Shown here piece by piece: positions 11,433 through 24,565 of a stretch of 64,000 nucleotides of DNA. Within the stretch, counting starts at the first letter, position 1, and each line of letters begins with the position of its first letter. A program made the translations under genes and the position numbers. The notes under the pieces were generated by a model. The model did no database searches, was not told where the DNA came from, and worked only from the letters and a program-made list of their open reading frames with translations. Origin of the DNA: Synechococcus sp. PCC 7502. GTDB lineage: Bacteria; Cyanobacteriota; Cyanobacteriia; Pseudanabaenales; Pseudanabaenaceae. The stretch lies in contig NC_019702.1 of assembly GCF_000317085.1 (NCBI RefSeq), forward strand, positions 2,262,394 to 2,326,393. The letters are read 5' to 3'.

Positions 11433-11541
11433 GAATGATCTTTTAGAAGTTACTTGGAACTCCCAAAAGCCTTACCAGTTATGGCTCCCCAGCCAATGGA
11501 GCTAAGCGGATTCGAACCGCTGACCCCCTCAATGCCATTGA
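11433..11541. repeat. Left copy (attL) of a 109-bp direct repeat bounding the integrated element
   Basis: By my reading the sequence is identical base for base to 24429-24537. It contains the 3' half of tRNA-Ala (anticodon arm to discriminator base) plus 64 bp downstream of the tRNA. After 11541 the two copies diverge abruptly, inside the anticodon stem. The repeat is the expected attachment-site duplication left by tyrosine-integrase insertion into a tRNA gene. Confidence 0.9.
11497..11541 (-). pseudogene. tRNA-Ala 3'-half fragment
   Basis: This is 45 nt matching the T arm, variable loop and 3' side of the anticodon arm of tRNA-Ala(GGC), ending at the discriminator A. The 5' half is missing, so it cannot fold as a tRNA. 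It is the displaced 3' end created by integration. Confidence 0.85.
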
Positions 11542-11601
11542 TGAGACATTATTGGCTAGGGGTATTAATAGGTATAGCTTTTGGGCATTGTCAATAAATG
11601 A

Positions 11602-11624
11602 ACGGGGTAGATTTCGGGGTAGTT
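11602..11624. promoter_or_regulatory. Paired CGGGGTA repeats, candidate integrase arm sites (left end)
   Basis: Two direct copies of CGGGGTA spaced by 11 bp lie about 60 bp inside the left attachment repeat. The same pair in the same orientation, with 20 of 23 bases matching, occurs at 24354-24376 at the other end. Arm-type binding sites near both ends are typical of tyrosine-integrase elements. The role is inferred from position and duplication. Confidence 0.5.
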
Positions 11625-11666
11625 ATGATTGATGTAAAAGTTAGGTTTTATTAGGTTTTGACTGGT

Positions 11667-11870
11667 TTAATTCTCGACATTCATTAACTCTTTCTTTGCC
11701 GCTTCAGTGATTACCCGCCGTAGCCATGCCGATCTATTAGGTAGTGATCGCACTAAAGCATCAATTTCTAATGGCAATCTAGCCCCTAAAGTTAAAGGGG
11801 ATAGTTTATCGGTTGTGTCGTCTTGCCTAGTGACGTATTGAAGATTATTTTTAGGATGTGGATTGCCCAT
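11667..11870 (-). CDS. Small ribbon-helix-helix-like protein
   Basis: This protein has 67 residues from the ATG at 11870. The core LGARLPLEIDALVRSLPNRSAWLRRVITEAAKKEL shows a short basic strand (LGARLPLE) followed by two helices. That is the pattern of a ribbon-helix-helix DNA-binding domain of the kind found on cyanobacterial plasmids. It is probably a small repressor or plasmid-maintenance regulator. An open extension to 12035 lies upstream but would run into the DUF2335 gene, so the short form is preferred. Confidence 0.6.
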   Translation of the reverse strand: MGNPHPKNNLQYVTRQDDTTDKLSPLTLGARLPLEIDALVRSLPNRSAWLRRVITEAAKKELMNVEN

Positions 11871-11976
11871 AAGCGTTATTTGTTTGTGAACAAAGATAAT
11901 ATATCTTACAAGATTAAGTACAGTCAAATAAAAGCCCCGTATTTGTACAGGGCTAGTAAGTTTAATTAGTAAAGTG

Positions 11977-12414
11977 TTAATTGTCTGTCTTTTTCTCGGC
12001 TTCTCTACCTTTGACAAAGATTGTAACACCGCCAATAAAAGCGGTGACTATACTCCCTATCGCCACGCCCTCACTACCAATCTTCAAAGAATATCCCGCA
12101 AAGCTAATCACAGCCAAGAAAAGGATGAATCCTAAAGTTTGTCCTCGCATTTCAAATGTACGAATTGTCTTTGTATCGCCTATTTGCGCTTGAGTCTCCA
12201 TGATTTCTATGGTGTGACGATGAGCTTGTTCTTTTTCGGTCAAAGTAACTATACGGTCAACCATCCCAGGAACAATATTTTCGTATTCTACTAAAATCGA
12301 AGGGTGAGGGAATTGTCCTGTATAAAATTCTAAAGTTTGTTCTTCATACTCTTGACTGTGAACTACATTAGATTCTTTTGGGTCAAGAGGTTGAATGTTC
12401 GTATCTTCAGACAT
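11977..12414 (-). CDS. DUF2335-type membrane protein
   Basis: This protein has 145 residues. The first half is soluble and acidic, with the recognisable segment LEFYTGQFPHPSILVEYENIVPGMVDRIV and then TLTEKEQAHRHTIE. The C-terminal half has two transmembrane helices (TLGFILFLAVISFAGYSL and GVAIGSIVTAFIGGVTIFV) and a basic tail. This architecture is that of DUF2335, a small membrane family common on phages and mobile elements and of unknown function. It follows a small unknown gene by 6 bp on the same strand. Confidence 0.75.
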   Translation of the reverse strand: MSEDTNIQPLDPKESNVVHSQEYEEQTLEFYTGQFPHPSILVEYENIVPGMVDRIVTLTEKEQAHRHTIEIMETQAQIGDTKTIRTFEMRGQTLGFILFLAVISFAGYSLKIGSEGVAIGSIVTAFIGGVTIFVKGREAEKKTDN

Positions 12415-12420
12415 GCTTTT

Positions 12421-12756
12421 TTATGGATCGATAGATTTTGCAATAGCTACACGAAAACATGAACTCACTTTTGACACGTCAGACTTTAACGCTTCAATAT
12501 CCTTGAAGTTTACTGTCTTGACAAATGATTTTCTAAGTGGATGCCCTAGGAAAATTTTACTTTTTCTTGGAGTTGGCATGATATTCAATACCGAACCCAT
12601 TCCAAGCACAAACGCGGCAGTTCTAGAAGGGAGAGGGCGAATTCTGGAAGGCAGAGCGTGAATTCCGGGGGGCAAGGCGGGAATTCCAGAAGGAACGGGT
12701 ACCTTTTGGATTGCTAGTACTTTTTGTAAAACAGAATTTGGTGTGTTGATTTCCAT
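12421..12756 (-). CDS. Hypothetical protein with four 7-residue Pro-rich repeats
   Basis: This protein has 111 residues from the ATG at 12756. The family is not recognised. The N-terminal third contains a tandem heptad, PSGIPAL, PPGIHAL, PSRIRPL, PSRTAAF, encoded by a 21-bp repeat. The remainder is basic. The stop lies 6 bp before the start of the DUF2335 gene, which argues for a shared transcript. A competing plus-strand frame covers part of it but has no supporting context. Coding status is moderate. Confidence 0.4.
   Translation of the reverse strand: MEINTPNSVLQKVLAIQKVPVPSGIPALPPGIHALPSRIRPLPSRTAAFVLGMGSVLNIMPTPRKSKIFLGHPLRKSFVKTVNFKDIEALKSDVSKVSSCFRVAIAKSIDP
12610..12693. repeat. Four tandem 21-bp repeats
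   Basis: Four adjacent 21-bp units, each with a GAATTC-like core (one is GTTCTA), run from 12610 to 12693. Each encodes one Pro-x-x-Ile-x-x-Leu heptad on the minus strand. The units have diverged at several bases but keep length and frame, which suggests selection on the peptide. Confidence 0.7.
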
Positions 12757-12848
12757 AAATTTAACCTGGTCCACACATGTACAAATATGTTTGGAAGTCG
12801 ATCTATATTATCTCATTTCGCAAACAAGCGATCGCTAAGGTTAATTCA

Positions 12849-12896
12849 GCGATCGCTAGTCCCCACTTATTAAAGTTAGTGGGGACTAGCGATCGC
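12849..12896. repeat. Perfect 19-bp inverted repeat built on two HIP1 octamers
   Basis: Left arm 12849-12867 (GCGATCGCTAGTCCCCACT), a 10-base loop, and the exact complement at 12878-12896. The outer bases of each arm are HIP1 octamers. No T run follows on either strand, so it does not look like an intrinsic terminator. It sits at the start of the 500-bp gene-free region that contains the iteron-like array. Confidence 0.8.
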
Positions 12897-12999
12897 AATC
12901 AAATCAACGATCGCATAATGCAATTCCTGAACTTGGTCGATCTAATCTTCGATTAAAAAGCGATCGCCACCAAGCTAAAATTCACGGGCGATAAAGAGG

Positions 13000-13240
13000 G
13001 ACAAATCTGTGGACATTCCCGTAGACACCTTGGGGACAATGTAAACCCTAAAAGCATTAATAGATAGGTATTTAAGCCTTTAGAATGTCCGATCAATGTC
13101 CGTAAACCTGTCCGTTAAAATGTCTGTTATTTTAGTCGGACAACCTGATAAAACCTGACATTTTACAGGCACCCAAAACCTAGCAAAACTTAGTATTTTG
13201 CCGACATTTCTACCGACACAAAACCGACACCTTACCGACA
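13000..13240. other. Iteron-like array, candidate replication origin
   Basis: Three groups of four short repeats share a GACA core and are phased at 11-12 bp. Group 1 has GACA at 13000, 13012, 13024 and 13035. Group 2 is in the opposite orientation, with TGTCCG at 13086, 13097 and 13109 and TGTCTG at 13121. Group 3 has CCGACA at 13201, 13213, 13224 and 13235. Phasing of one helical turn and opposed groups are typical of initiator-binding iterons. No gene overlaps the region, which lies in the longest gene-free stretch (12775-13288) of an element that encodes a replication protein and a partition pair. Confidence 0.6.
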
Positions 13241-13288
13241 TCTAAAACTATAAAACCCTCTAACAATGAGGGTTAGATGATATAGACT

Positions 13289-13483
13289 TTATTTGATTAG
13301 CTCTGGTAGTAATTCCTTATACGATCGCTCTATAACCGCTACTTGTTCGAGGGTATGAAGGTGTAGCAGTTTTAGCTCTTTAGCTACTGCTTGAGCTTGT
13401 TTAAGGCTCATTTTATCCACTTCCTTACTAAATTTGATGTAATCCATCTCGACATCAAACGGCAGTTTTTTAGGATTTAACAT
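13289..13483 (-). CDS. NblA-like small protein
   Basis: This protein has 64 residues. The core runs LPFDVEMDYIKFSKEVDKMSLKQAQAVAKELKLLHLHTLEQVAVIERSYKELL. That order (short hydrophobic start, E, F-x-x-x-V-x-x-MS-x-x-QAQ, L, and a C-terminal YKELL) matches NblA. NblA is a helical-hairpin adaptor that targets phycobilisomes to Clp protease when nutrients run short. The loop between helices is a little longer than in typical NblA. If correct, a mobile element carries a handle on light-harvesting antenna turnover. The assignment rests on motif pattern only. Confidence 0.5.
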   Translation of the reverse strand: MLNPKKLPFDVEMDYIKFSKEVDKMSLKQAQAVAKELKLLHLHTLEQVAVIERSYKELLPELIK

Positions 13484-13489
13484 TAGGAT

Positions 13490-13981
13490 TTATTTTTTAA
13501 TTGATTGGCAGTATAGGCGATCCGCCTCATCGTGCAGTTGTTCGATTTGGCTAAATAATAGTTCTAAACTTCCTGCGATCGCCTGACTTTCTGGCTCCCA
13601 GAGGTAAGCAAATAAATGTGATTTATCAAGTAGCATTGCCAGTGAGTGAGCTTTTAAGGCTACGTCATAATGTTCTTTAACCAGATTAGATTCAGTCTCT
13701 AGGCTTTTTAATTCAATACTGGTTACGTTTTTAACTTTGCTGTTATCTACTATCTCTAACCCTGATAATGCCTTGTGCAGACTAGCCACATCATTAATGA
13801 GAGTTTCAACTATATAGCTATCCCCGCCGTCTCCCAGATTTGATGTAAATAAGCTTTCATCATTGCCAGTGTCATCGATGGAGAGCGATCGCCAAAGTGT
13901 TTTTAATTTACCCGCAATAGCAACAGTCTGACTCTTGATTTTAGCTAGTTCTAAGTCTTTGTTTAGTTGTTCGATATTCAT
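13490..13981 (-). CDS. Hypothetical helical protein
   Basis: This protein has 163 residues, acidic and predicted largely helical (ELAKIKSQTVAIAGKLKTLWRSL; LKAHSLAMLLDKSHLF; SLELLFSQIEQLHDEADRLY). No family is recognised and no membrane segment or signal is present. It lies 6 bp upstream of the NblA-like gene on the same strand, so the two are likely co-expressed. Confidence 0.55.
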   Translation of the reverse strand: MNIEQLNKDLELAKIKSQTVAIAGKLKTLWRSLSIDDTGNDESLFTSNLGDGGDSYIVETLINDVASLHKALSGLEIVDNSKVKNVTSIELKSLETESNLVKEHYDVALKAHSLAMLLDKSHLFAYLWEPESQAIAGSLELLFSQIEQLHDEADRLYCQSIKK

Positions 13982-14078
13982 TGCTAATTCTCCTATTGGT
14001 TAATGTTTTGGTTAATTTGGTTGTTGCGATCGCATAAATAAGACTTTCTTAAAAACTGCGATCGCTATGGGGTAAAGG

Positions 14079-14207
14079 CTATAACTGACAGTCCCATTTA
14101 GTGCGGACAACTTGATCAAGTAATTTGCAGACTAGGCGATCGCCACCGAGCAATCGTGCATTGGGGCAGTTGCCACAAGTTTTGATTTTGGGTTCAGTGG
14201 TAATCAT
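14079..14207 (-). CDS. Small cysteine-containing protein (42 aa)
   Basis: The ATG at 14207 overlaps the TGA of the upstream 61-residue gene in an ATGA arrangement, indicating translational coupling. The product begins MITTEPKIKTCGNCPNARLL and has four cysteines in C-x2-C ... C ... C order, with the last two in RLVCKLL and KWDCQL. This suggests a small zinc-binding fold. Confidence 0.5.
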   Translation of the reverse strand: MITTEPKIKTCGNCPNARLLGGDRLVCKLLDQVVRTKWDCQL

Positions 14208-14389
14208 GATTCACCACCATCAAGGCGATCAAAGTATTGACTTCTTAACTGGGTGCGCTGATTGCTGGTTAAAGATTGCCAATATTGCTTAGTGAATCCC
14301 ATACGGGCATAGAGGGGAGATTCTTGATTGCTTGGACTCCAAGAGCCACAATCTTTGTAATGGTGTTTTAGGACTGTTCTTGATAGCAT
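14204..14389 (-). CDS. Hypothetical small protein
   Basis: This protein has 61 residues: a basic, aromatic-rich N-terminus (LKHHYKDCGSWSPSNQ) and a helical segment (GFTKQYWQSLTSNQRTQLRSQYFDRL). No family is recognised. Coding status is supported by the 4-bp overlap with the following small gene and by an operator-like promoter block about 75 bp upstream. Confidence 0.5.
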   Translation of the reverse strand: MLSRTVLKHHYKDCGSWSPSNQESPLYARMGFTKQYWQSLTSNQRTQLRSQYFDRLDGGES

Positions 14390-14462
14390 TGGATTAATTC
14401 CTTAATTGGGATTGTTTTGATAAGGTGATCGCTGTTTTCTTGGTCGGAAGTGCGATCGCCTT

Positions 14463-14505
14463 AACTTTTTATATAGTACTTTATTTATCAAATACTTGTC
14501 AAGTA
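14463..14505 (-). promoter_or_regulatory. Promoter/operator block, copy 1
   Basis: This 43-bp block matches 14943-14985 at 40 positions. It contains the perfect palindrome TACTTGTCAAGTA (14493-14505). Read on the minus strand, the palindrome holds TTGACA, a consensus -35 box. An AT-rich stretch with a weak -10 candidate follows 18 bp on. It precedes the leftward gene starting at 14389. Confidence 0.55.
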
Positions 14506-14535
14506 GTTTATAAAGTATTTTATTTGCAAATTACT

Positions 14536-14889
14536 TTAAGCAATTGCAAGCTTTTTGGGTCTGCCCCGTTTCTTATGGACTGTGATTGTATTTTGAGTCA
14601 TTGGTACTATGACAACCCCAGAACTAGGCAAAACAGGTGGGGTTATTAGGGTTCTAGGCTGCGTACCTGAAAGTAACCCAATCACATTAAATGCACTTAG
14701 AGCAAGGTTTTTGGGGTGCGTACTTGATTGATCGTCACACCAATCATTAAGTAACTTTATCCTGATAGTGATCGCCTTAATAGTGGCTGAAAGTATTTGG
14801 ATTACGCTAGAGATTAGAACTATTACAAGCAGTGCAAAACCAGTAAGAATAAGCTTTATAGCGGTTAAAGTTAATTTAGTATTGTTCAT
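14536..14889 (-). CDS. Membrane protein with AT-hook-like tail
   Basis: This protein has 117 residues. An N-terminal hydrophobic region (IKLILTGFALLVIVLISSVIQIL) is a transmembrane helix, and a short polar domain follows. The C-terminus is HKKRGRPKKLAIA, containing the GRP core of an AT-hook. A membrane protein with a DNA-binding tail could tether the element or its origin to the membrane, but that is speculation. It is preceded by the second operator block. Confidence 0.5.
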   Translation of the reverse strand: MNNTKLTLTAIKLILTGFALLVIVLISSVIQILSATIKAITIRIKLLNDWCDDQSSTHPKNLALSAFNVIGLLSGTQPRTLITPPVLPSSGVVIVPMTQNTITVHKKRGRPKKLAIA

Positions 14890-14942
14890 TGTTAGTTCCT
14901 GTGTAGAGGTTAGGAGTGGCTATCAGAGTGTAGAGATTGCTG

Positions 14943-14985
14943 AACTTTTTATATGGTACTTTATTTATAAACTACTTGTCAAGTA
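14943..14985 (-). promoter_or_regulatory. Promoter/operator block, copy 2
   Basis: This block repeats the one at 14463 and contains the same perfect 13-bp palindrome (14973-14985) with an embedded TTGACA on the minus strand. It lies between the leftward membrane-protein gene and the rightward ribbon-helix-helix gene, and so may control both. A further TACTTGG and AAGTACC pair lies at 15038-15063 just upstream of the rightward gene. Confidence 0.55.
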
Positions 14986-15078
14986 CTAAATAAGTACAAT
15001 ACTTTAGATATACTTTATATTGTGCTTTTATTTAAGGTACTTGGTATATACTTTATAAGTACCTTAGAAATAATTGAT

Positions 15079-15699
15079 ATGGCAAAACCTCTAAATATCA
15101 AGCCAGTGCAGATTTACCCAAGCCCTGAGCTTTATGATGCCATTAAAGAAACTGTCGATAATGGTACTTATAGAAGCATGAATGCTGCTGTGATTGCATT
15201 GGTGGAAAATGCTCTATTGGGGAGTAACAAAGCTGAAAATAATCAATCCTCTGTAGATATTGGTACTGTAAAGCAGTTAATTAAAAACGAAATCGCAGGG
15301 CTGAAACAGCAATTATTAGATGAGTTATCAATTCTGATCGCTAATTTTGGCAGTGGTCAGGCTGATACTGCGATCGCCAACAGTGAGACTAAACATAACC
15401 AAGTTGATTTAACGGATATTCCTGCTACTCAGGCGATCGCAGTTAGTCCAGAAATTACCCCAGATAATCCAAAACCCTCTCAAGATGGTTCAGAGCATCC
15501 TTACCCTATTGGGGCAGAAATAAGGCTTAAGGACTTGGCAGAATATCTAGGCTTTGATCGGGTTAACTACTCTACAAAGGCTAAAAAACAGGGGATAAGC
15601 CAAGAGGATTACATTAACAATATTGCTAGGGATAGAGGTGAAGTTTGGAAACGTGTAGAGCATTCTCAAAATAATGTAACGGTTATTAGAGTTAAATAA
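15079..15699 (+). CDS. Ribbon-helix-helix-type DNA-binding protein
   Basis: This protein has 206 residues from the ATG at 15079. Residues 1-45 (IKPVQIYPSPELYDAIKETVDNGTYRSMNAAVIALVENALL) have the strand-helix-helix pattern of plasmid CopG/ParD-like repressors. A coiled segment follows (VKQLIKNEIAGLKQQLLDEL), then a Pro-rich linker, then a C-terminal domain (IRLKDLAEYLGFDRVNYSTKAKKQGI) that resembles a second helix-turn-helix. It is divergent from the membrane-protein gene across a palindromic operator, which fits an autoregulator. Confidence 0.6.
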   Translation: MAKPLNIKPVQIYPSPELYDAIKETVDNGTYRSMNAAVIALVENALLGSNKAENNQSSVDIGTVKQLIKNEIAGLKQQLLDELSILIANFGSGQADTAIANSETKHNQVDLTDIPATQAIAVSPEITPDNPKPSQDGSEHPYPIGAEIRLKDLAEYLGFDRVNYSTKAKKQGISQEDYINNIARDRGEVWKRVEHSQNNVTVIRVK

Positions 15700-15715
15700 T
15701 GGAGCGATCGCCACT

Positions 15716-16237
15716 ATGGACAAAGAGCAAAAATTTAAGGAATTTTCAGAACGTAAACGACCACAAATCACCTATGGGGATGTAAAGGGGACTGGCAAGA
15801 TTGAAGCCGTTAGCATCTCTGGAGTTTTAGGGACTGGAGACGGTTCTATATCCCCATTCTCAAAAGAATTGAGTAAACCACTGAGCAATCATGAAATAGA
15901 AATGATGCTGTCAAATCAGGCGATCGTACTTAATGCCATTGGGAACAGACATCTTCAAATGAGTATTGATTTAGCAGAACTAACAAGCGGGTCTCAGGGT
16001 AGAGAACAATGTGAAATTTACCTTAAAAACAGTTTCAAAGCTTTTGAGCTATCCCGTAAATGTCTGACGGCTCTCAATGAAGTTCGTAATCCCAAGCGAT
16101 CAACATTTATCAAACAGCAAAATAATCAGCTTAATTTAGGTGATAAAGATGGGCAGAAAGTGGACAGACTCCCAGAAAGCAAGGCAATCCCAGTTAATTC
16201 GACAGTGGAAACCGTGGACAAAATCTACAGGGGCTAA
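15716..16237 (+). CDS. Conserved phage/plasmid-type hypothetical protein
   Basis: This protein has 173 residues. The helical centre (MMLSNQAIVLNAIGNRHLQMSIDLAE ... IYLKNSFKAFELSRKCLTALNEVRNPKRSTFIKQQNNQLNLG) resembles a conserved protein of plasmids and prophages in many bacteria. In those it is typically followed by a small protein with a GRKW...STG motif, as it is here. The function is not known. It begins 16 bp after the RHH gene and its last 89 bp overlap the next gene in another frame. Confidence 0.6.
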   Translation: MDKEQKFKEFSERKRPQITYGDVKGTGKIEAVSISGVLGTGDGSISPFSKELSKPLSNHEIEMMLSNQAIVLNAIGNRHLQMSIDLAELTSGSQGREQCEIYLKNSFKAFELSRKCLTALNEVRNPKRSTFIKQQNNQLNLGDKDGQKVDRLPESKAIPVNSTVETVDKIYRG

Positions 16238-16379
16238 GACTAAAGAAGGTAAGGCAATAGTTAGTAAAAATGCCTTAAGAAAATGTGAGTATATAAAACC
16301 TAAATCTGGGGGAGATATAGAGGCTTTTAGGGAGTTTTTAAGGCAAACCAGAGAGCTTTTAGCAAGGTACGGTAAATAG
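16149..16379 (+). CDS. Small basic protein of the GRKW/STG type
   Basis: This protein has 76 residues from the ATG at 16149. It begins MGRKWTDSQKARQSQLIRQWKPW, followed by KSTGAKTKEGKAIVSKNA, a combination I recognise from small proteins of phages and integrated elements. It is basic and probably binds nucleic acid. The first 89 bp overlap the end of the preceding gene in the next frame, and both frames stay open with recognisable conserved motifs, so the overlap appears real. Confidence 0.65.
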   Translation: MGRKWTDSQKARQSQLIRQWKPWTKSTGAKTKEGKAIVSKNALRKCEYIKPKSGGDIEAFREFLRQTRELLARYGK

Positions 16380-16497
16380 TTTGTTTTGTAATTTAGTGCA
16401 AGAAATATTTTGAGTTTTTAGCTAATCCTAGATGCGATCGCAACCATGAACCAAACTACTTAAATCGTTTCTAAATACTAGGTTTTCCGAGGTTTTA

Positions 16498-17019
16498 TTA
16501 ATTGATAACAAAATACTTTTCAAAAGTAGGAATTTTTGCCTCTCCTATTCCACTGCTAAGTTTAGTAAAAACTTTCAGATCATTTGATTTAGACCAATTG
16601 CTTCGCTTTTCCACAATTAACTTTGCTGCTTTTTTTGCATCTATTCTTTTGAAATCATGTAGTTTAATAATGTACTGGATCATTTCAAAGATTAAATCTT
16701 CTGAAGCGGTTAAAAGATCAATTTCAAATTTTTGTTTTGATTCAATATCGATCTGTTTTTTTCGTTCTTCATCAGCCAAAATACACCATACATAATCTAA
16801 CTTAGCCTCGATTGCCCCAGCTAAAATATCCCCATTTAGTAAGACCTTATAGCTATCATCGGTTTCTTGTTCAACAATTACAGGTAGAATATTACGCCCT
16901 GATTGGCTAAGTTTATCTGCGATCGCACTAATTATTACCTTGTCAGTATTAGTCCCTTCATATCTAATTTCATGACGTGGGATGCGAAGATATTTACCGA
17001 GGTCGCTAAAGTTTTCCAT
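16498..17019 (-). CDS. ParB/Srx-fold partition protein
   Basis: This protein has 173 residues. Near the N-terminus, RIPRHEIRYEGTNTDKVIISAIADKLSQSGRNILPVIVEQ and then YKVLLNGDILAGAIEAKLDYVWCIL reproduce the ParB N-terminal (sulfiredoxin-like) pattern, with G-D in place of the usual G-x-RR. The remaining residues are helical. It starts 2 bp after the ParA gene ends, so the two form a partition operon. It is shorter than chromosomal ParB and lacks a clear classical helix-turn-helix. Confidence 0.65.
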   Translation of the reverse strand: MENFSDLGKYLRIPRHEIRYEGTNTDKVIISAIADKLSQSGRNILPVIVEQETDDSYKVLLNGDILAGAIEAKLDYVWCILADEERKKQIDIESKQKFEIDLLTASEDLIFEMIQYIIKLHDFKRIDAKKAAKLIVEKRSNWSKSNDLKVFTKLSSGIGEAKIPTFEKYFVIN

Positions 17020-17021
17020 AG

Positions 17022-18185
17022 TTATTCGTAGATAAAGTTAGGGTTAATAAAAATTTCTTTAGTAAGTTCTTCGTAATCTCTGGATATTTTTGAGGTACTA
17101 ATTGAGATAACGGGGTGCCGTTTGAAAGTAGCTTGTCTAACAGCAGCAAATACTCCAAGCTTAGTTTTATAGACTTTCAAAGATGCTTTAGCCAGAAATT
17201 CTTCAACCGCTTTCTCTAACTTAGACCCCATATCAGTATGATTGCTGAATACAACCCCTAAAACCCTTGGATTTATATCAGCAATAGGTGTTTTGTTAAT
17301 ATCAGTTGTTCTAAGCGATCGTATTTTCTGAACTAATCCTTGGTTAATATCTTTGGCATGATGTAATGCCCTTTGATCGAAGTCAGCAGGAATCAACATA
17401 GCATCACAGGCAAATAATGAAGATACCGTAGCTATATCTGGGTCTGGGGAAGTATCAATAAAAATGTAGTCGTATTTTGGAGCGATCGCAGCTAGTAGCC
17501 TTTTTAGTAGGGTCTGCTTGTTTTTTATTTCATATTCATCACTACGAAATTTTTCAATGGTGTCTCGGTCAGTTGGTAAAACACTAATACTGTACTTGTC
17601 TTGACTACTAGGAAGGGGGAAATTACGTTCGACTATCAATTTCTCTAATAAATCTATAGCTTCTTGAGTTTTGCCTAAACCAATCTGGTCGAAACATTCA
17701 AGTATTTGGTATTTATAATCGCTTGGCTCAAGCCCTAACCCACGGGTTAAATCGCTTTGTCCATCAAAATCAACTACCAAAACCCGTTTACCCATTTTGG
17801 CTAAAACAGCAGAAATATTAATGACATTAGTTGTTTTGCCTACGCCGCCTTTACGATTCCAAAGGCTGATAATCAAGGCTCTTTGTGGATGTTCAAGATA
17901 ATATTGAAGCTGTGCAATCAGTTTAGGCAAGTTATCCTTGTTAACTCTATAAATATCCGTAAGTGGTAATACTAACCCGTCTACACGTCTAAACAATTGC
18001 CAAAATTCTCCACTAAATACCCACCCAAGGGGAGCAGAAGTAGGAAGAGTTAGATATTGTTGTATTCCTGCGCTAGTAATACCAAAAACAGCATCTCTGT
18101 ATAACGGGCAGTTAACAAAATTTTCAGTAGGCTGCTTCTTTTTAGTTTCGACATACAGCAAAGGCTTAGAGTTTTTACCATACAA
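17022..18185 (-). CDS. parA: ParA-family partition ATPase
   Basis: This protein has 387 residues if translation starts at the TTG at 18185. It is an ATPase that positions plasmid copies together with ParB and a centromere site. The deviant Walker A motif RKGGVGKTTN lies at 111-120, a VVDFDGQSDLTRGLG switch I region near 145, and DYIFIDTSPDPD (Walker B) near 240. The first 100 residues are not part of the ATPase. They begin with SKPLLYVETKKK, which continues upstream in the same frame as a nuclease-like domain cut by a TAA codon (18198-18200). The preserved partition half suggests that it still functions. Confidence 0.85.
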   Translation of the reverse strand: MYGKNSKPLLYVETKKKQPTENFVNCPLYRDAVFGITSAGIQQYLTLPTSAPLGWVFSGEFWQLFRRVDGLVLPLTDIYRVNKDNLPKLIAQLQYYLEHPQRALIISLWNRKGGVGKTTNVINISAVLAKMGKRVLVVDFDGQSDLTRGLGLEPSDYKYQILECFDQIGLGKTQEAIDLLEKLIVERNFPLPSSQDKYSISVLPTDRDTIEKFRSDEYEIKNKQTLLKRLLAAIAPKYDYIFIDTSPDPDIATVSSLFACDAMLIPADFDQRALHHAKDINQGLVQKIRSLRTTDINKTPIADINPRVLGVVFSNHTDMGSKLEKAVEEFLAKASLKVYKTKLGVFAAVRQATFKRHPVISISTSKISRDYEELTKEIFINPNFIYE

Positions 18186-18191
18186 GACAAA

Positions 18192-18210
18192 ATCAGGTTA
18201 TAAACCTGAT
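18192..18210. repeat. Perfect 8+3+8 palindrome at the parA start
   Basis: ATCAGGTTATAAACCTGAT lies 7 bp upstream of the TTG start of parA and contains the in-frame TAA of the broken N-terminal extension. It could be an operator or centromere half site for the partition proteins. I saw only this single copy. Confidence 0.5.
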
Positions 18211-18344
18211 CCGACATTCGGTTGAGTGAGATATCTATACCCCAAAAATTCTAATAGATGGTTAGTGAACAAAGAGTTTAAGTTAGGTTCGCTTATTTTT
18301 GTACCTAAATCCTTCCATTTTTCGACTAATTGTGATACTTCCAT
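18198..18344 (-). pseudogene. N-terminal HsdR-like (PD-(D/E)xK) extension of ParA, interrupted by TAA
   Basis: The ATG at 18344 opens 48 codons (MEVSQLVEKWKDLGTKISEP ... FTNHLLEFLGYRYLTQPNVGSGL), then TAA, then PDFVLYGKNSKPLLYVETKKK, in one frame with ParA. Ignoring the stop, the joined sequence has the order F-x-x-x-LLEFLGY, G-PD-FVLYG and LLYVETKK. That is the D...ExK layout of the type I restriction R-subunit N-terminal nuclease fold. A single base change (AAA to TAA) would explain the stop. A loss of six bases is equally possible. Confidence 0.55.
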
Positions 18345-18483
18345 TTGCGTTTTTTAGAAGAAATTCTGCCTTACCAAAAAGAATACCAAATTGGCTATAT
18401 TCAGCATAACAGTCGGCTGCTATATCCTGATCGCCAGTCCATCTAATTAATTTTTACCAGTAGTTTGATTTTTAGCCCTACGA
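18345..18483. other. Gap holding only an unsupported minus-strand frame
   Basis: On the minus strand a frame without a canonical start reads LIRWTGDQDIAADCYAEYSQFGILFGKAEFLLKNANGSITIS in part. It runs past the ATG at 18344 in another frame before stopping. Composition looks protein-like, so it may be a decayed gene, but I cannot identify it. Confidence 0.25.
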
Positions 18484-18912
18484 TTAAGTAAATCTTTGGT
18501 TGCTTGAGTTGTTATCGAAGATCGCCGTCAAAGGGTTATAACCTCTACGCTTTAACTCTTCAAACTCTTCCTTAGCCTTGGTTATTTTGGCTTCTAATTC
18601 GGCAATGGTTAAATGTTCCCCACTAATAGATTTTGTTTCTAGTGGCGGGTATAAAGCTTTAACCTTAGCTAAAGCTCTCTCTAATTCTTGCTCACTTGCG
18701 ATCGCTAACCTTTCTAACTGGACTAGATCGCAGTCGATTAACCCCGCTTCACATAGGACTTTTGAGACTTCATACTCCAATCTCTCCGCCCTTAAATTTG
18801 GGCTAGGTTCAAGATTAATCCCTAACTGTTTTAGATAGGCTTTGACAAGGGGATTAGTTTTATCCTGTTTCCACACTAATAGGAGTGATTTTAAGATTCT
18901 TTGGTTATTCAT
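18484..18912 (-). CDS. Hypothetical helical protein
   Basis: This protein has 142 residues, helical and charged (LRAERLEYEVSKVL; LTIAELEAKITKAKEEFEELKRRGYNP), with a probable coiled coil at 100-125. The family is not recognised. It starts 5 bp after the zinc-ribbon gene and belongs to the leftward replication-gene cluster. Confidence 0.55.
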   Translation of the reverse strand: MNNQRILKSLLLVWKQDKTNPLVKAYLKQLGINLEPSPNLRAERLEYEVSKVLCEAGLIDCDLVQLERLAIASEQELERALAKVKALYPPLETKSISGEHLTIAELEAKITKAKEEFEELKRRGYNPLTAIFDNNSSNQRFT

Positions 18913-18917
18913 GTTTT

Positions 18918-19226
18918 TTATAGTTGCTTAAAGTTAGGATTCCAAGTGGTTTTACAGGGTTCACAGAAGGAAAACCCGCCTATGCCTTGCTGTCTAGGTA
19001 CATAATCATTAGCGTTTTGATGGCATAACGGGCATTTTCCAAACCAATCGGATAGGCGATCGCATTTTGGTAACTTGCAGTCATCGAGTGGGTAAGGTTC
19101 ACCCTTTGAAAATAGGTAAACTTTTCCCTCTGGATTTTTAGCCCTACGTTCAACTCGATTAAATCCGTTGGGGAAAATTACACCCGCCCCAACTTCAGGA
19201 ATTTTAGAAATCGGTAAAGTCATCAT
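18918..19226 (-). CDS. Zinc-ribbon hypothetical protein
   Basis: This protein has about 102 residues. The ATG at 19226 is chosen because a GGA lies ten bases upstream; an ATG at 19241 is also open. The N-terminal half (VIFPNGFNRVERRAKNPEGKVYLFSKGEPYPLDDC) is unknown. The C-terminal half has CPLCHQNAND and SFCEPCKTTW, two C-x2-C knuckles of a zinc ribbon. The start overlaps the end of the replication gene by about 20 bp, suggesting coupling. Confidence 0.6.
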   Translation of the reverse strand: MMTLPISKIPEVGAGVIFPNGFNRVERRAKNPEGKVYLFSKGEPYPLDDCKLPKCDRLSDWFGKCPLCHQNANDYVPRQQGIGGFSFCEPCKTTWNPNFKQL

Positions 19227-21561
19227 GATTTTTAATTCCATTCTTAGAGTAGGCAGTCAATTCAGTCAACGATGTCTGTAAGTCTTTCTCTATCTCGATT
19301 TGACTATTGACTGGCACACAGTCAACTTGGCAGTCACCACAGTCAACTGGTTCAGTATCAAAACTAAAATCATTGACTGTCTTGACTGGGTTATTGACTG
19401 CTACACAGTCAACGGTTAACGCTATATCTAGCAAGGGTTCTATCTGTTGGTGACTGGATTGACTGCCTCTAGTAACAATAACTATGTAGTTAGATTGGGT
19501 TGGATCACCTTTGGCGATCGCATATCCAAGATTTACAACCTTGCTCATAAAGTCTCGAATTTCCTGTAACTTTGGTTTTTTAGTAGACCACCATGCCCTA
19601 ACCTGAACAGCCTTAATTTCTCCACAGTTCTGGAATCTGTTAACAAATTTGAGTATTCTTGACATTTCTGGGTTATCCCCAATACCAAACTCTGCATAAA
19701 GCTCTTTACTTTGGGCAATTAACCACCTAGTAAAGCTAATAGCCTTTTCCAATGTCTCTACTGATACCCCTACTAAGAGCCCATCCCGATGGCTAATACA
19801 ATGGGCTATTAGAGCTATCCGCCCCGCCCTTTCTTTCATCTTGGGATAAATTGCCCTAAGTATGGGTGAAGCCTCGACTAGCTTGATAGACTCCATTTCA
19901 TCATGCCAATCTGCCCAAAGCTGCTGTGCTTGTTTGCTAAGGGTGTAAGTAGCTGCTGGCAAATTGCTTAAGTCACAGTAAAGCCCTTTTAGTAAGTCAC
20001 CCACTAGATACTTACCGCCGCTAGGAGCAGGGGTTTTAGTTAATGGCAACCGTATCCATGAAAATCTAGCCCATAAGCCGTCTTCAGAGCTTAAATCATC
20101 GGTCATTATGTTTTGTAGAATAGAAGGCTGTATGCCTCCAATGATGCTTATCCCTGTCCGCTTGGCAAAAACTCTGGTGTCGTCACTCTTGCGGTTACTT
20201 TTCCAAGCCCCACCGTCGTATGCACTTAAGAATTTGGGGCGATCATTACCTTTGCCACTACGGTATTGGTTGAAACCTTGAAAGAAAGTTGCAAGCTCAT
20301 CCATATAGAGGGTAAACCCTTGTAACGGCTGCTTAGATATGGTTTGAGAAATATACTCTAGGGTAAAATCACTCAAATAATAATCCCGTCCTATTGGTTT
20401 TCTACCTGTGGATTCCCCTGCTTTTTCCTGCGCTTGCCATATCTCTAGTTCAGCTTTGTATATCTCCTCTGCATTGTATTGAAGTTCGATTAGGGGTGAA
20501 AGTATTGCCCGTGACTTGGGTGATTTCATTGCCCCTGTCTCTGCTACGGTGCCAACCCAAAAGATAGGCGGACAATGGTAGTCGGTTCCAGAATCGATTA
20601 ACAATGTGGTACCAATTGGGATTAGGCTCCCTGCTGCTGCCAATAAATCGGCATAGTAAAGCTCTGGGGAAAGTCCCATTTTCTGAGCTAGTCCAGTTAT
20701 TGCTCTTTCAAATATTTCTGGTAATAGTCCTCTCTGGGGCTTTGGATAGCTGGTTAGTGTGGCTAGATATTCAGCGTCTAGGGTTGAATTGTCATCATTG
20801 CCTTGATCTGCGAACTGAGCTAAATCAAAGGGTGCTATCGCAGATTCAATATCTTCTTTAGTGCATCCGTCAACTATCCAATCATAAACATCACGCCCAT
20901 CTTTAGCAGGGATATAGTCCCATTTACTAGGCTCTGCAAGCATCATTTTGATACTGGCTGCTACTGGTTTGAATGCCTCATAGTGGGCTAGTGCTTTTTT
21001 AATGCCTGTCTCATCACGATCGGGACAGATTATCAGATTGACACTTTTGAATAATTCCAAAGTTTCCAGAGTTGGCTTAGTCCTTAGATTTGTGGCAACT
21101 AAACCAAACCTGTTTACTAATTCATCTGCACCTAGTTCACCTTCTATTAGATAGATAGGTTTCTGATTGGCGATCGCCTCTTTGACTTCAGCCCATCGGT
21201 AAGGCAATAGTTCAGATTCTTTAATACCCAGTGGTTTAGCCCAAGTAGTAACTTTCTTACCGTCTGGTTTGTACTCACGATTAAATCGGTATTGGTTACC
21301 TTGCCTATCGCTGTAAATATGCTTAAAGTTTATTCCTACTGGTCTAGGAGACTTTTCACTGGGAATTACATAGATACCACACCGATCGTCAGAATTAGCC
21401 CCTATGTACTTCCAACCGTCCTTAGTTAAGTCTCCATTGATGCTTGAATGGCATAGAACCATAGAGCCGTTTTCACTGATTCTGCAATCTTTATCTTTTG
21501 TGCGATCGCATATCGGACAGGGGTTATTAATACCTGAATTTCTGAATTTTGAATTATTCAT
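19204..21561 (-). CDS. Replication protein: zinc-finger/TOPRIM primase-like with DUF3987 helicase-like domain
   Basis: This protein has 785 residues from the ATG at 21561, chosen for the strong GGGAGG ribosome-binding site 9 bp upstream. Residues 10-50 form a zinc finger (CPICDRTKDKDCRI ... MVLCH). Residues 130-210 carry TOPRIM-like motifs (IYLIEGELGADEL and LIICPDRDETG). From about 280 onward runs a DUF3987-type ATPase region (IFWVGTVAETGAMKSPKSRAI as degenerate Walker A; LYMDELATFF as Walker B). This architecture is typical of primase-helicase proteins of plasmids, phages and integrative elements. The last 85 residues are low-complexity and encoded by the TTGACTG repeat cluster. The next gene overlaps its end. 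Confidence 0.8.
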   Translation of the reverse strand: MNNSKFRNSGINNPCPICDRTKDKDCRISENGSMVLCHSSINGDLTKDGWKYIGANSDDRCGIYVIPSEKSPRPVGINFKHIYSDRQGNQYRFNREYKPDGKKVTTWAKPLGIKESELLPYRWAEVKEAIANQKPIYLIEGELGADELVNRFGLVATNLRTKPTLETLELFKSVNLIICPDRDETGIKKALAHYEAFKPVAASIKMMLAEPSKWDYIPAKDGRDVYDWIVDGCTKEDIESAIAPFDLAQFADQGNDDNSTLDAEYLATLTSYPKPQRGLLPEIFERAITGLAQKMGLSPELYYADLLAAAGSLIPIGTTLLIDSGTDYHCPPIFWVGTVAETGAMKSPKSRAILSPLIELQYNAEEIYKAELEIWQAQEKAGESTGRKPIGRDYYLSDFTLEYISQTISKQPLQGFTLYMDELATFFQGFNQYRSGKGNDRPKFLSAYDGGAWKSNRKSDDTRVFAKRTGISIIGGIQPSILQNIMTDDLSSEDGLWARFSWIRLPLTKTPAPSGGKYLVGDLLKGLYCDLSNLPAATYTLSKQAQQLWADWHDEMESIKLVEASPILRAIYPKMKERAGRIALIAHCISHRDGLLVGVSVETLEKAISFTRWLIAQSKELYAEFGIGDNPEMSRILKFVNRFQNCGEIKAVQVRAWWSTKKPKLQEIRDFMSKVVNLGYAIAKGDPTQSNYIVIVTRGSQSSHQQIEPLLDIALTVDCVAVNNPVKTVNDFSFDTEPVDCGDCQVDCVPVNSQIEIEKDLQTSLTELTAYSKNGIKNHDDFTDF
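19254..19465. repeat. Cluster of TTGACTG heptamers in both orientations
   Basis: Perfect heptamers lie at 19254, 19263, 19319, 19340 and 19406 (CAGTCAA) and at 19307, 19373, 19382, 19394 and 19459 (TTGACTG). Close variants lie near 19331 and 19451. Two pairs form identical-arm palindromes with 5-base centres: TTGACTGGCACACAGTCAA (19307-19325) and TTGACTGCTACACAGTCAA (19394-19412). All lie inside the 3' end of the replication gene, where they encode VDC and VN/VNN-type peptides. Confidence 0.75.
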
Positions 21562-21893
21562 TAGTTCGATCCTCCCGTAACTGGGCGATCGCATCTACAG
21601 CAAAGTAATTTACCTTTGAATAAATAACCACGTTTACAGCCACAGTGCTTACAAGATGGATTAATACCGACTGAGCGTATTTGAGGTTTGAATGATTGAA
21701 CTGGGAATAAATCTAATTGATCGTGATCAGCAAGGAAAGCATCAATTAATAATGAGCTTGGTTTAGTCCAAGTGTCTGAGGTAAGGCGATCTATGCTTGG
21801 GTGAAATATCAAGTTTGAGGTAGTATTAGTTCTAACAGTTGTTAAATTTTGTCCTACCCCTTTCCTGTCCAGAGAGGGATTTTTTTTACTCAT
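21561..21893 (-). CDS. Zinc-ribbon hypothetical protein
   Basis: This protein has 110 residues. The N-terminal part is polar and not recognised. The C-terminal part, CKHCGCKRGYLFKGKLLCCRCDRP, has the C-x2-C ... C-x2-C layout of a zinc ribbon. Its stop codon overlaps the ATG of the replication gene (TAATG), and its start abuts the stop of the preceding gene, so these three genes form one translationally coupled unit. Confidence 0.6.
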   Translation of the reverse strand: MSKKNPSLDRKGVGQNLTTVRTNTTSNLIFHPSIDRLTSDTWTKPSSLLIDAFLADHDQLDLFPVQSFKPQIRSVGINPSCKHCGCKRGYLFKGKLLCCRCDRPVTGGSN

Positions 21894-22166
21894 TTAACTA
21901 GCTCCTAATTTTTGGCTAGTAGGTAAGCTAGATAAATATTGCTCTATTAATCTTTGGTGGTCTGGGCGATCGCCATTGAGCAGATAATCTTTGACTAGAT
22001 GCAAATTCCACAGCACTTTACGCTCTGGTTTTATCCAATACAAAGGACTAGGTAATTTCTTTCTTAACTCTGATTCCCCAAACTTGCCGATCTCGAAATG
22101 TTGCGATCGCAAGGTAACACTACTGACATAGGGGAAAGTTTGAGGCATGATAGGTTTAATCGCCAT
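21894..22166 (-). CDS. Small excisionase/winged-helix-like protein
   Basis: This protein has 90 residues. The segment LRKKLPSPLYWIKPERKVLWNLHLVKDYLLNGDRPDHQRLIEQYL resembles small plasmid and integrated-element proteins. The YW-I-x-P-x-R-K-V-x-WN strand-turn-strand followed by a helix is the pattern of excisionase-type winged helices. It is a possible recombination directionality factor or regulator at the head of the replication operon. The function is inferred from the pattern only. Confidence 0.5.
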   Translation of the reverse strand: MAIKPIMPQTFPYVSSVTLRSQHFEIGKFGESELRKKLPSPLYWIKPERKVLWNLHLVKDYLLNGDRPDHQRLIEQYLSSLPTSQKLGAS

Positions 22167-22208
22167 AGGTTAAAAACTCCTAAGTTATTTAGTTTGTGGT
22201 CTGGTTAC

Positions 22209-22255
22209 GTCGGTAGCTTTCAGCTTCTAATTGATGAGCTACCGACTTCTTTTTT
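22209..22255 (+). terminator. Intrinsic-terminator-like hairpin facing right
   Basis: GTCGGTAGCT (22209-22218) pairs perfectly with AGCTACCGAC (22237-22246) across an 18-base loop. The run TTCTTTTTT follows on the plus strand. All nearby genes run leftward, and no T run follows on the minus strand, so this would end a rightward transcript antisense to the replication operon leader. Confidence 0.55.
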
Positions 22256-22378
22256 GGGTTGTTCTAATTGGTTTTAACGGCTTTAGGACGTTACAAGCCT
22301 AGAATTACATGAATAAAAAATGCCCGCTTGCTCAGGACAGCATAGGGAGTAGTACTTTATAAAACTTTATAATTACCG

Positions 22379-23245
22379 CTATTTACTTCCTAAAGGTGGT
22401 CTGCCTCCAGCCCTTTTAGTTTCGGGTTTAGGGGTATAAGTTTTTTTGTCTTTGCCCGTCCAGTGCAGATCATCACCCCTAATTGTGGGAATTTGGTAAT
22501 ATTTCAGTTCTTTAGTGAGCCTTTCGTAATCACGTTTATGGGATAACCAATTTTCTAAAAAGTCTTGTAAGGTTCGATCTCTTGTATCTATGGCTTGGTG
22601 TATCGCAAGAGTCCAAAGAACATCTGTGAATGCCTCTCCAAAGTAGTCATTTGAAGGTATTGGACGGCGCAAATCTTGTGGTAAGCAACCATAATTCTTA
22701 AGAGAATTAAGCAATTTAGTTAGTTCAGATGACTTAATCTTATAAATCTCACGTTTACCAAAAGTCTTACCTTTAGAATTAACAAGGGGCTCACCCCAAA
22801 AGCCATTAGCCTTAAGAGCATGAATACATTCACTCATCTCACAAGTAAGCCATAAAATATTAGGATCATTAGCGACGCTTTGAGCGAATGGAAGAAATAA
22901 CCAAAGTTGCCTACATAACTCATATCTATGTAAAGATAATTTTGCGAATGGTCTGTATCCAATATCCAAATCAGTTAAGAGTTCAATCTTTTGAGACCTA
23001 TACCATCTGAGCCACTTAGCGGAACCCTGATATAGTTCTTCACAAACATATACCATCTGCCTTTGCCCATAGTTTTTAGGCTCATTTTCTCGAAGGAATA
23101 TCTTAGGAAATCTACTATATTCCTCAAAAATATTTAATACTCTAGGTTCCTTATTGGCTTTATGACATCCTAATGCTTCAAGTCCCCTGATCATTGCATC
23201 AAGTGCTTGTTGCTCTGGTAGTTGTTTTAAGTTCTTCTTTTTCAT
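22379..23245 (-). CDS. Hypothetical protein with basic GRPP tail
   Basis: This protein has 288 residues from the ATG at 23245; a TTG three codons earlier is possible. The family is not recognised. It is soluble and aromatic-rich (EELYQGSAKWLRWYRSQKIELL; ELCRQLWLFLPFAQSV), and the C-terminus KRAGGRPPLGSK resembles an AT-hook. It lies immediately downstream of the integrase frame on the same strand, so it may be transcribed with it and have a role in recombination or control. Confidence 0.5.
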   Translation of the reverse strand: MKKKNLKQLPEQQALDAMIRGLEALGCHKANKEPRVLNIFEEYSRFPKIFLRENEPKNYGQRQMVYVCEELYQGSAKWLRWYRSQKIELLTDLDIGYRPFAKLSLHRYELCRQLWLFLPFAQSVANDPNILWLTCEMSECIHALKANGFWGEPLVNSKGKTFGKREIYKIKSSELTKLLNSLKNYGCLPQDLRRPIPSNDYFGEAFTDVLWTLAIHQAIDTRDRTLQDFLENWLSHKRDYERLTKELKYYQIPTIRGDDLHWTGKDKKTYTPKPETKRAGGRPPLGSK

Positions 23246-23250
23246 CTGCT

Positions 23251-24354
23251 TCAAAACTCCATAAATACAGATTGTTGATTAATCGAACTCGCATAATTTT
23301 GAAACATCACTTTTGGATTGTGACCAGATGCCTCTGCTACATCGATATAGTTCGCTCCATTAGCTAAGGCATGAGATATAGCTGAATGTCTTGTAGCGTA
23401 GGGTTTACGGTATTCAATTCCTATCTTGGAGATTATCGTTTTCTATGCCCTGCGATTGAAGTTATGGTCATCTAACGGGTTCCCTTGAGGTGATGAGAAC
23501 ACTAAATCATCTGGTTTATGGGGTTTTTCAGAATGCAGTTTAAGCATTGCCGAAATATTAGGACTAATAACCACTGTCCTAAATTTTCCCGTCTTGGTTG
23601 TATTCCGATGGGTTCCCCTGCTAATCGTTTCACAGAAAATAATGTGACTAAAATCATCAGCGACATTTCTCCATCTCAACCCCGCAGCTTCACCAAATCG
23701 ACACGCTACCCCAAATAAAAACTTAACTAATGGGTAATAGTGGGAATAGTAGCGATCGCCCTTAAAAGCATTCAGGATTAATTGAATTTCATTAGCTGTG
23801 AATGGTTTAATCCGTTTAGACTCACTGGGCTTTATACGTTTTAGATGATTCTCCCAAGGGTTAGATTCTGAGATGTGATACTTTCCTTTTGCCCAATTCC
23901 AAGCCCCTTGTAGTAGCCATAGGCGATCTTTTGCTGTTCGACTTGATGCCCTCTCTAAGAGCAAAGCCAAGAAATTACCCGCAGCAAATTCCGTAACCTT
24001 AAATGCAGGAATATTCAGAGACTTTTCTAATTGCCTAAACAGTGGGTTATACCTACCACTAATTGAGCGAGTGGTTAAACCCTTTTCTTTAATTAGGTGC
24101 TGTATATATTTCTGGAATAACTCTGGGGCAGTAATTTCAGTGGCAGTTTTACCCCTTGTGCGAGGTTTGTACTTTAGTAAGGTTGGGTCAAAATATCCTG
24201 CTTGAATATCTAGCTCAATCTGGGCTGCTTTCTGTTTTGCTACGGCTCTACCAGTTGGATCGTCATTAACACCACAAGACATTTGCAGACGTTTGCCTTG
24301 GTATATCCAACGTAGTCTTAACCTACCGTCATGATTTTCTATGGTAATTTTCAT
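23251..24354 (-). pseudogene. int: Tyrosine recombinase (integrase) interrupted by an amber codon
   Basis: The frame from the ATG at 24354 would give 367 residues. The N-terminal arm-binding domain (MKITIENHDGRLRLRW; QGKRLQMSCGV) is of the DUF3596 type. A core-binding domain follows, then the catalytic domain with the first Arg in GVACRFGEAAGLRW and the Lys hairpin TTKTGKFRTV. At codon 304 a TAG (23443-23445) follows NFNRRA, where relatives have Trp. The same frame then continues with PYATRHSAISHAL, ASGHNPKVMFQNYAS (catalytic His and Tyr region) and a TGA at 23251. Without suppression the protein lacks the catalytic tyrosine. Confidence 0.85.
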
Positions 24355-24376
24355 CGGGGTAAATATCGGGGTAGTT
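24354..24376. promoter_or_regulatory. Paired CGGGGTA repeats at the integrase start (right end)
   Basis: Two CGGGGTA copies lie immediately upstream of the integrase ATG, in the same spacing as at 11602-11624. Integrase binding here would also repress its own promoter. The inference comes from the match between element ends. Confidence 0.5.
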
Positions 24377-24428
24377 TTACAACCCAAATAACCCTTAAAA
24401 GCCCATATTTACATCTCTTGTTGAGAAT

Positions 24429-24537
24429 GAATGATCTTTTAGAAGTTACTTGGAACTCCCAAAAGCCTTACCAGTTATGGCTCCCCAGCCAATGGAGCTA
24501 AGCGGATTCGAACCGCTGACCCCCTCAATGCCATTGA
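24429..24537. repeat. Right copy (attR) of the 109-bp direct repeat
   Basis: It is identical to 11433-11541 and includes the 3' 45 nt of the intact tRNA-Ala gene. It lies between the integrase and the tRNA, the usual arrangement for tRNA-targeting elements. Confidence 0.9.
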
Positions 24538-24565
24538 GGTGCGCTACCAACTGCGCTATAACCCC
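24493..24565 (-). tRNA. tRNA-Ala(GGC)
   Basis: This is 73 nt with a full cloverleaf. The acceptor stem is GGGGTTA with TAGCTCC and discriminator A. The anticodon loop ATGGCAT gives anticodon GGC, and the T arm is AGCGG TTCGAAT CCGCT. The third acceptor pair is G-U, the alanine identity determinant. CCA is not encoded. This copy is intact and serves as the integration site. Confidence 0.95.

Follow-up and report, generated by a model that had tools for sequence, protein, structure and literature searches.

In this study, we describe a gene from a 64,000-nucleotide stretch of the Synechococcus sp. PCC 7502 genome (contig NC_019702.1, positions 2,262,394 to 2,326,393; hereafter the window, to which all coordinates refer) as a copy, broken by a nonsense codon, of a two-gene cassette of cyanobacteria. 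The intact pair would act as a ParA/ParB couple with a ParA-gated nuclease, most likely in competition or quality control between replicons; we give this reading about an even chance of being right. The window copy itself is a decayed relic, and the interest lies in its family. ParA ATPases are known positioning motors, and a conserved catalytic nuclease fold joined to such an ATPase, with a ParB-like partner of its own, would tie DNA positioning to cutting and raises the question of whether the ParA cycle gates cleavage. The fusion may also help to explain the coexistence of many plasmids in one cyanobacterium, or the exclusion of others. No description of a nuclease-ParA fusion was found in the open-licence literature searched, within which the family is apparently undescribed.

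Organisation of the interrupted gene

The fusion frame runs from an ATG at 18344 to 17022 on the minus strand (440 codons) and is open apart from one TAA at 18198-18200 (codon 49), where the relatives are open and after which 391 further codons lead to the end of the frame. The original prediction, made from this DNA alone, had read the frame upstream of ParA in the same way, and the three stretches that it quoted (LLEFLGY, PDFVLYG and LLYVETKK) are present exactly as given; a further residue of the motif, E19, precedes the stop. Residues are numbered by read-through with X at the stop, which places E19 before it and D51, E66 and K68 after it.

Codons 1-48, which encode the start of the nuclease-like domain with E19, lie at 18201-18344 (minus strand) and match the N-termini of the relatives. 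The best match, to a Mastigocoleus copy (L061), covered all 48 residues at 43.5 bits, against a maximum of 24.3 bits for 200 shuffled versions of the same residues. The remainder of the PD-(D/E)XK nuclease-like domain, with D51, E66 and K68, occupies 17877-18197 on the same strand, as indicated by alignments, an AlphaFold2 model and PDB matches, and is followed by the ParA-type ATPase domain with the terminal stop (17022-17876, minus strand). With X at the stop, the 440-residue chain could be aligned with unbroken homologues over nearly its whole length (residues 4-438, E 2.4e-86).

Nuclease-like N-terminal domain

The AlphaFold2 model of the N-domain, for which 19 relatives were aligned, had a pLDDT of 93.3 and a pTM of 0.88. 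All nine of its Foldseek matches at E<=0.001 were to DrdV and BpuSI; an HsdR came tenth. Z scores obtained with VIA-align were 13.3 for DrdV (128 residues, 2.5 A), 12.8 for BpuSI, 10.4 for HsdR of Vibrio vulnificus and 8.1 for EcoR124I HsdR. Mitoribosome chains also appeared in this comparison, at Z 9.0-9.7, from which nothing was inferred. According to the model, the N-domain is a PD-(D/E)XK nuclease fold of the HsdR/type IIG type; a nuclease core had been foreseen in the original prediction, and the model matches the nuclease domains of both type IIG enzymes and HsdR. The fold search was needed because a PDB sequence profile search with the N-domain was uninformative, returning unrelated weak rows only (best E 0.58). 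With Pfam HSDR_N (PF04313), the window N-domain scored 13.5 bits, below the curated cut-off of 25.1, and so falls outside this family.

All 20 sequences compared have E19, E66 and K68. D51 occurs in 18 of them; the two Mastigocoleus copies (L060 and L061) have K or N in its place. The four residues are present in every member of a wider set of 13 sequences, which includes relatives as distant as 26% identity. Such conservation of the catalytic pattern points to DNA cleavage by the intact members. As D51 is lost in Mastigocoleus and no partner gene occurs in the flanks read there, that branch appears able to do without the nuclease.

The type IIG and type I nuclease domains (DrdV, BpuSI, HsdR) share with the N-domain both the fold and the E...D...ExK pattern. 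Their usual fusion partners are a methyltransferase or a translocating helicase, whereas the window N-domain is fused to a ParA ATPase, in a cassette that has neither a methyltransferase nor a specificity gene.

ParA ATPase domain and partner gene

By domain, the second part of the chain is a ParA-type partition ATPase of the ParA/MinD type (AAA_31, E=2.3e-33), with a profile match to solved ParA structures and a deviant Walker A motif, KGGVGKTT. K165, G166, G167, V168, K170, T171, T172, D192, D194 and D297 are invariant among 13 sequences.

Downstream, at 16498-17019 on the minus strand, lies a conserved partner gene for a protein of 173 amino acids, which combines a ParB N-terminal fold with a helical C-terminal part (helix-hairpin-helix-like in some relatives). 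An equivalent gene was located directly 3' of the fusion in 16 of 19 loci; the two Mastigocoleus loci have none in the flanks read, and locus L051 ends at a contig end. The partner gene of L049 is cut by a contig end. Four loci (L045, L047, L050 and L054) encode partner proteins with a second C-terminal repeat similar to the first.

Over residues 9-96, the model of the partner (pLDDT 85.8) matched the N-terminal domains of ParB proteins, with a Z score of 11.5. Pfam searches of 15 partner members at E<=1 found ParB_N in five (best 1.6e-4), HHH_3 in three and Rho_N in one, and HTH_ParB was absent from the 19 families matched. In the PDB sequence profile search, stathmin rows led the list (E 0.037), ahead of ParB at E 0.25; the identity of the partner was decided by the fold search. 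The letters of ParB Box I form a GERR-type motif, which is not kept in the partner, the profile consensus reading ntlilea opposite GERRWRA of a ParB. Because the ParB N-fold is present and the GERR-type box is not kept, the partner is, going by its model, a ParB-like protein and not a canonical ParB. The nucleotide-binding Box I is named in PMC12704722.

The cassette thus shares with type I ParABS systems a KGGVGKTT ParA ATPase and a downstream gene with the ParB N-fold, but differs in its nuclease-fold N-domain, in a partner without the GERR-type box and without an HTH_ParB match, and in that no common parS-like repeat was found in the six loci scanned. Locus L053 alone has a short tandem repeat, of 16-bp units shortly after the partner gene (L053:10139-10199), which is a putative binding site. 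In the ParATS system of Streptomyces plasmid SCP2, a ParA is paired with a ParB-like protein whose action does not need CTP, and ParT is presented there as having no CTPase domain (PMC12260392). In contrast to ParT, the partner described here keeps the ParB N-fold, and the portion of that paper available to us describes no nuclease (PMC12260392).

Homologues and clades

The joined architecture that the original prediction proposed was found unbroken in relatives. Among 38 genomes of the window's family, six open matches besides the window's own started before residue 60: those on G021 and G011 contigs were 42 and 41% identical over residues 4-438, and the remaining four (G011:C1, G009, G013 and G012) 31-33%. 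A sample of the phylum (386 genomes) gave nine matches at E<=1e-25, including the window's own. Scanning genome contigs with the N-domain alignment alone identified 19 loci, all cyanobacterial by record title, and in all 19 a ParA P-loop follows the N-domain in the same frame; an earlier scan of genome contigs with a single protein as query had returned no relative. Locus L046 loses the frame within the ATPase, and L051 is truncated near its contig end. In genome G120, a transposase gene separates the two parts of a split fusion copy (L036 and L043). The same N-domain alignment found no relative in the viral contig collection scanned, and a phage origin of the N-domain is unsupported by that collection.

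Five plasmid records (two from Pseudanabaena, one from Nostoc and two from Leptolyngbya boryana) carry the fusion at 98-99% query cover, annotated as 'AAA family ATPase' only. Six records reached a cover of at least 80%; the sixth (H9, from Persicobacter), 25% identical and matching from residue 75, is left out of the fusion count. Record H6, at 78% cover, holds a fusion of clade B (see below), and H1-H6 all carry the fusion.

In a tree of the ATPase domain, the window copy falls within clade A (16 rows, support 98/98), with Mastigocoleus nearest (91/93). Clade B (support 99/99) has an N-domain that can be aligned with that of clade A, and the same kind of partner. Clade C, a cyanobacterial pair of an HSDR_N_2-ParA gene and a ParB_N gene, forms a separate ATPase clade (95/97). 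The tree took part of the loci (15 other rows of clade A, five of B and five of C); L046, L051 and two canonical ParAs, whose Walker A was not matched by the script, were left out. Its outgroup branches are long and it does not give the order of the three clades among themselves, and either a single or a repeated origin of the fusion would be compatible with it.

HSDR_N_2 matches in clade C scored 29.6 and 31.5 bits (L018 and L024) against a cut-off of 25, and 24.8 and 16.5 bits in two others. A ParB-like gene stands directly downstream in five of five loci (L016, L018, L020, L024 and L027). Clade C is widespread, with matches in 54 of the 386 genomes at E<=1e-60, some of these matches covering the ATPase alone; the window's own genome gave no match at this threshold. 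Clade C resembles the window fusion in having a nuclease-like N-domain on ParA and a ParB-like gene directly downstream, and differs from it in its own ATPase clade, another linker and a larger partner. For this pair, likewise, no description was found in the open-licence literature searched.

Plasmid and chromosomal settings

Unbroken fusions also occur in chromosomes and are not specific to plasmids. That such a fusion couples the upkeep of plasmids to DNA cutting, as the original prediction has it, is a hypothesis. In three of the five chromosomal neighbourhoods read (L085, L086 and L087), the pair stands alone between other genes. In the other two it lies near a type III methyltransferase (R-M) gene and a NERD-UvrD gene (L089) and near Cas4-Cas1 (L088). 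Some of the flanking genes were searched, and the others we take to be housekeeping-like. The Nostoc plasmid of record H3 carries, besides the fusion, a canonical ParA and a ParB (ParB_N 114.6 bits, HTH_ParB 39.7), and the small plasmid ABRG53g has no other annotated partition gene. No model of a known anti-phage defence system in PADLOC-DB 2.0.0 was matched; four homologues and the ATPase of the window gave only weak hits, most of them P-loop matches, and two partner proteins gave none.

Proposed function

Gene 1 of an intact cassette is predicted to encode the nuclease-fold domain fused to the ParA ATPase, and gene 2 a small ParB N-fold protein, in some members with a helix-hairpin-helix or Rho_N part. 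The product of gene 2 would sit on DNA and drive the ATPase cycle of the gene 1 product, and this cycle may bring or license the active nuclease at DNA marked by gene 2. The use would be competition or quality control between replicons, by cutting DNA without, or with, the mark, which appears likelier than simple partition. A conflict or surveillance role is favoured by the Nostoc plasmid with its canonical ParA-ParB and by the chromosomal pairs that are solitary or adjacent to R-M or Cas genes, and on these comparisons we suggest, with moderate confidence, replicon conflict or surveillance with ParA-gated cleavage. The basis is five chromosomal neighbourhoods (two with close relatives) and one plasmid. 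Several observations weigh against this role: the six plasmid fusions (H1-H6) fit partition too, ABRG53g offers no other annotated partition gene, the Mastigocoleus copies, which are the nearest relatives, have neither D51 nor a partner in the flanks read, and the PADLOC match is limited to weak P-loop rows.

The main alternative, which is possible but doubtful, is a plain partition module, in which the nuclease fold has become a DNA-binding domain and gene 2 encodes the centromere-binding protein. Type Ia ParA proteins have an N-terminal helix-turn-helix, whose place the nuclease fold would here have taken. The occurrence of ParA and a ParB-fold partner in one operon, the copies on plasmids and the loss of D51 in Mastigocoleus all agree with such a module. 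DNA binding alone, however, would not need E19, E66, K68 and D51, which are kept in all or nearly all of the 20 sequences, and a canonical ParA-ParB pair is already present on the same Nostoc plasmid. The solitary chromosomal copies, and the lack of a common centromere-like repeat among the six loci scanned, also speak against partition alone.

Extending the ParA-gated reading to all clades, we tentatively suggest a two-gene class, on plasmids and chromosomes, in which the ParB-like, DNA-marking protein would drive a ParA cycle that guides the type IIG-like nuclease of the same chain to particular DNA. It would comprise at least three clades, of which two share an N-domain and a further one has HSDR_N_2. 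Such cleavage-coupled partition could, if true, be directed against competing plasmids, integrated elements or DNA that enters the cell, which it would expel or destroy.

Decay of the window copy and its element

The chain begun at the ATG ends after 48 residues, and a product restarted at a TTG at 18185 would be without E19 and D51; no nuclease is therefore expected, and the window copy is a decayed relic. We infer that no full-length protein is made; the most that could result would be a shortened ATPase that has neither E19 nor D51 and hence no nuclease activity. The N-domain is about as close to the nearest relative, L061, as the ATPase is (45 and 46% identity), and the break at 18198-18200 therefore looks recent. 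A second copy of the fusion was not found in the window's own genome.

It is rather unlikely that the gene works in two pieces, as a 48-residue leader peptide and an ATPase started from TTG 18185 or a later TTG, giving positioning without cleavage. In favour of it, the 387 codons downstream are uninterrupted and encode all ATPase motifs, and the partner gene is open as well. Inspection of the sequence, however, revealed no recognisable ribosome-binding site at TTG 18185 or at ATG 18344, the TTG codons in general have no clear one, the first in-frame ATG after the stop (17795) lies past the P-loop, and the surrounding element is decaying. The original prediction had the ATPase probably made alone from the TTG start; of that prediction as a whole, the nuclease fold, the fusion in relatives and the interruption in the window stood, whereas the ATPase made from a TTG and the link between plasmids and cleavage are conjectural.

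The decaying element is visible in the window as a 13-kb insertion (11433-24537) integrated at tRNA-Ala(GGC) (24493-24565, minus strand). An exact direct repeat of 109 bp marks its two ends; the tRNA-side copy, the attachment site (24429-24537), covers the last 45 bases of the tRNA, and the distal copy lies at 11433-11541. Within the element are a tyrosine integrase gene with an in-frame TAG at 23443-23445 (23254-24387, minus strand) and a gene for a DUF3987 (primase/helicase-like) protein (19204-21594, minus strand; Pfam E=1.6e-40). A paralogue of the integrase, 81% identical and open, is found at 1.50 Mb of the same contig. That integrase and fusion are both interrupted by stops in one element favours decay of the element and of its fusion copy over a sequencing error.

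An error of sequencing or assembly at 18198-18200, with an intact gene in the organism, is unlikely. A single defect in 440 codons, and an N-domain that has not decayed beyond the ATPase, would suit an error. Against it, besides the integrase, stand a near-complete assembly (99.93%, 3 contigs) and the breakage of other copies of the family, namely the transposase-split copy in G120, the frame loss in L046 and the truncation of L051. That the resemblance of the N-domain to nucleases is due to chance is next to impossible, being ruled out by the shuffle test, the alignments and the structure match, even though the window N-domain alone has no Pfam match above cut-off.

The partner gene and the broken integrase had both been absent from the original prediction. 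A related element in the same genome, without a nuclease-ParA gene (L083; G000:C3:1486000-1505500), shares several blocks of 72-88% identity with the element described here, the main ones at 82-86%.
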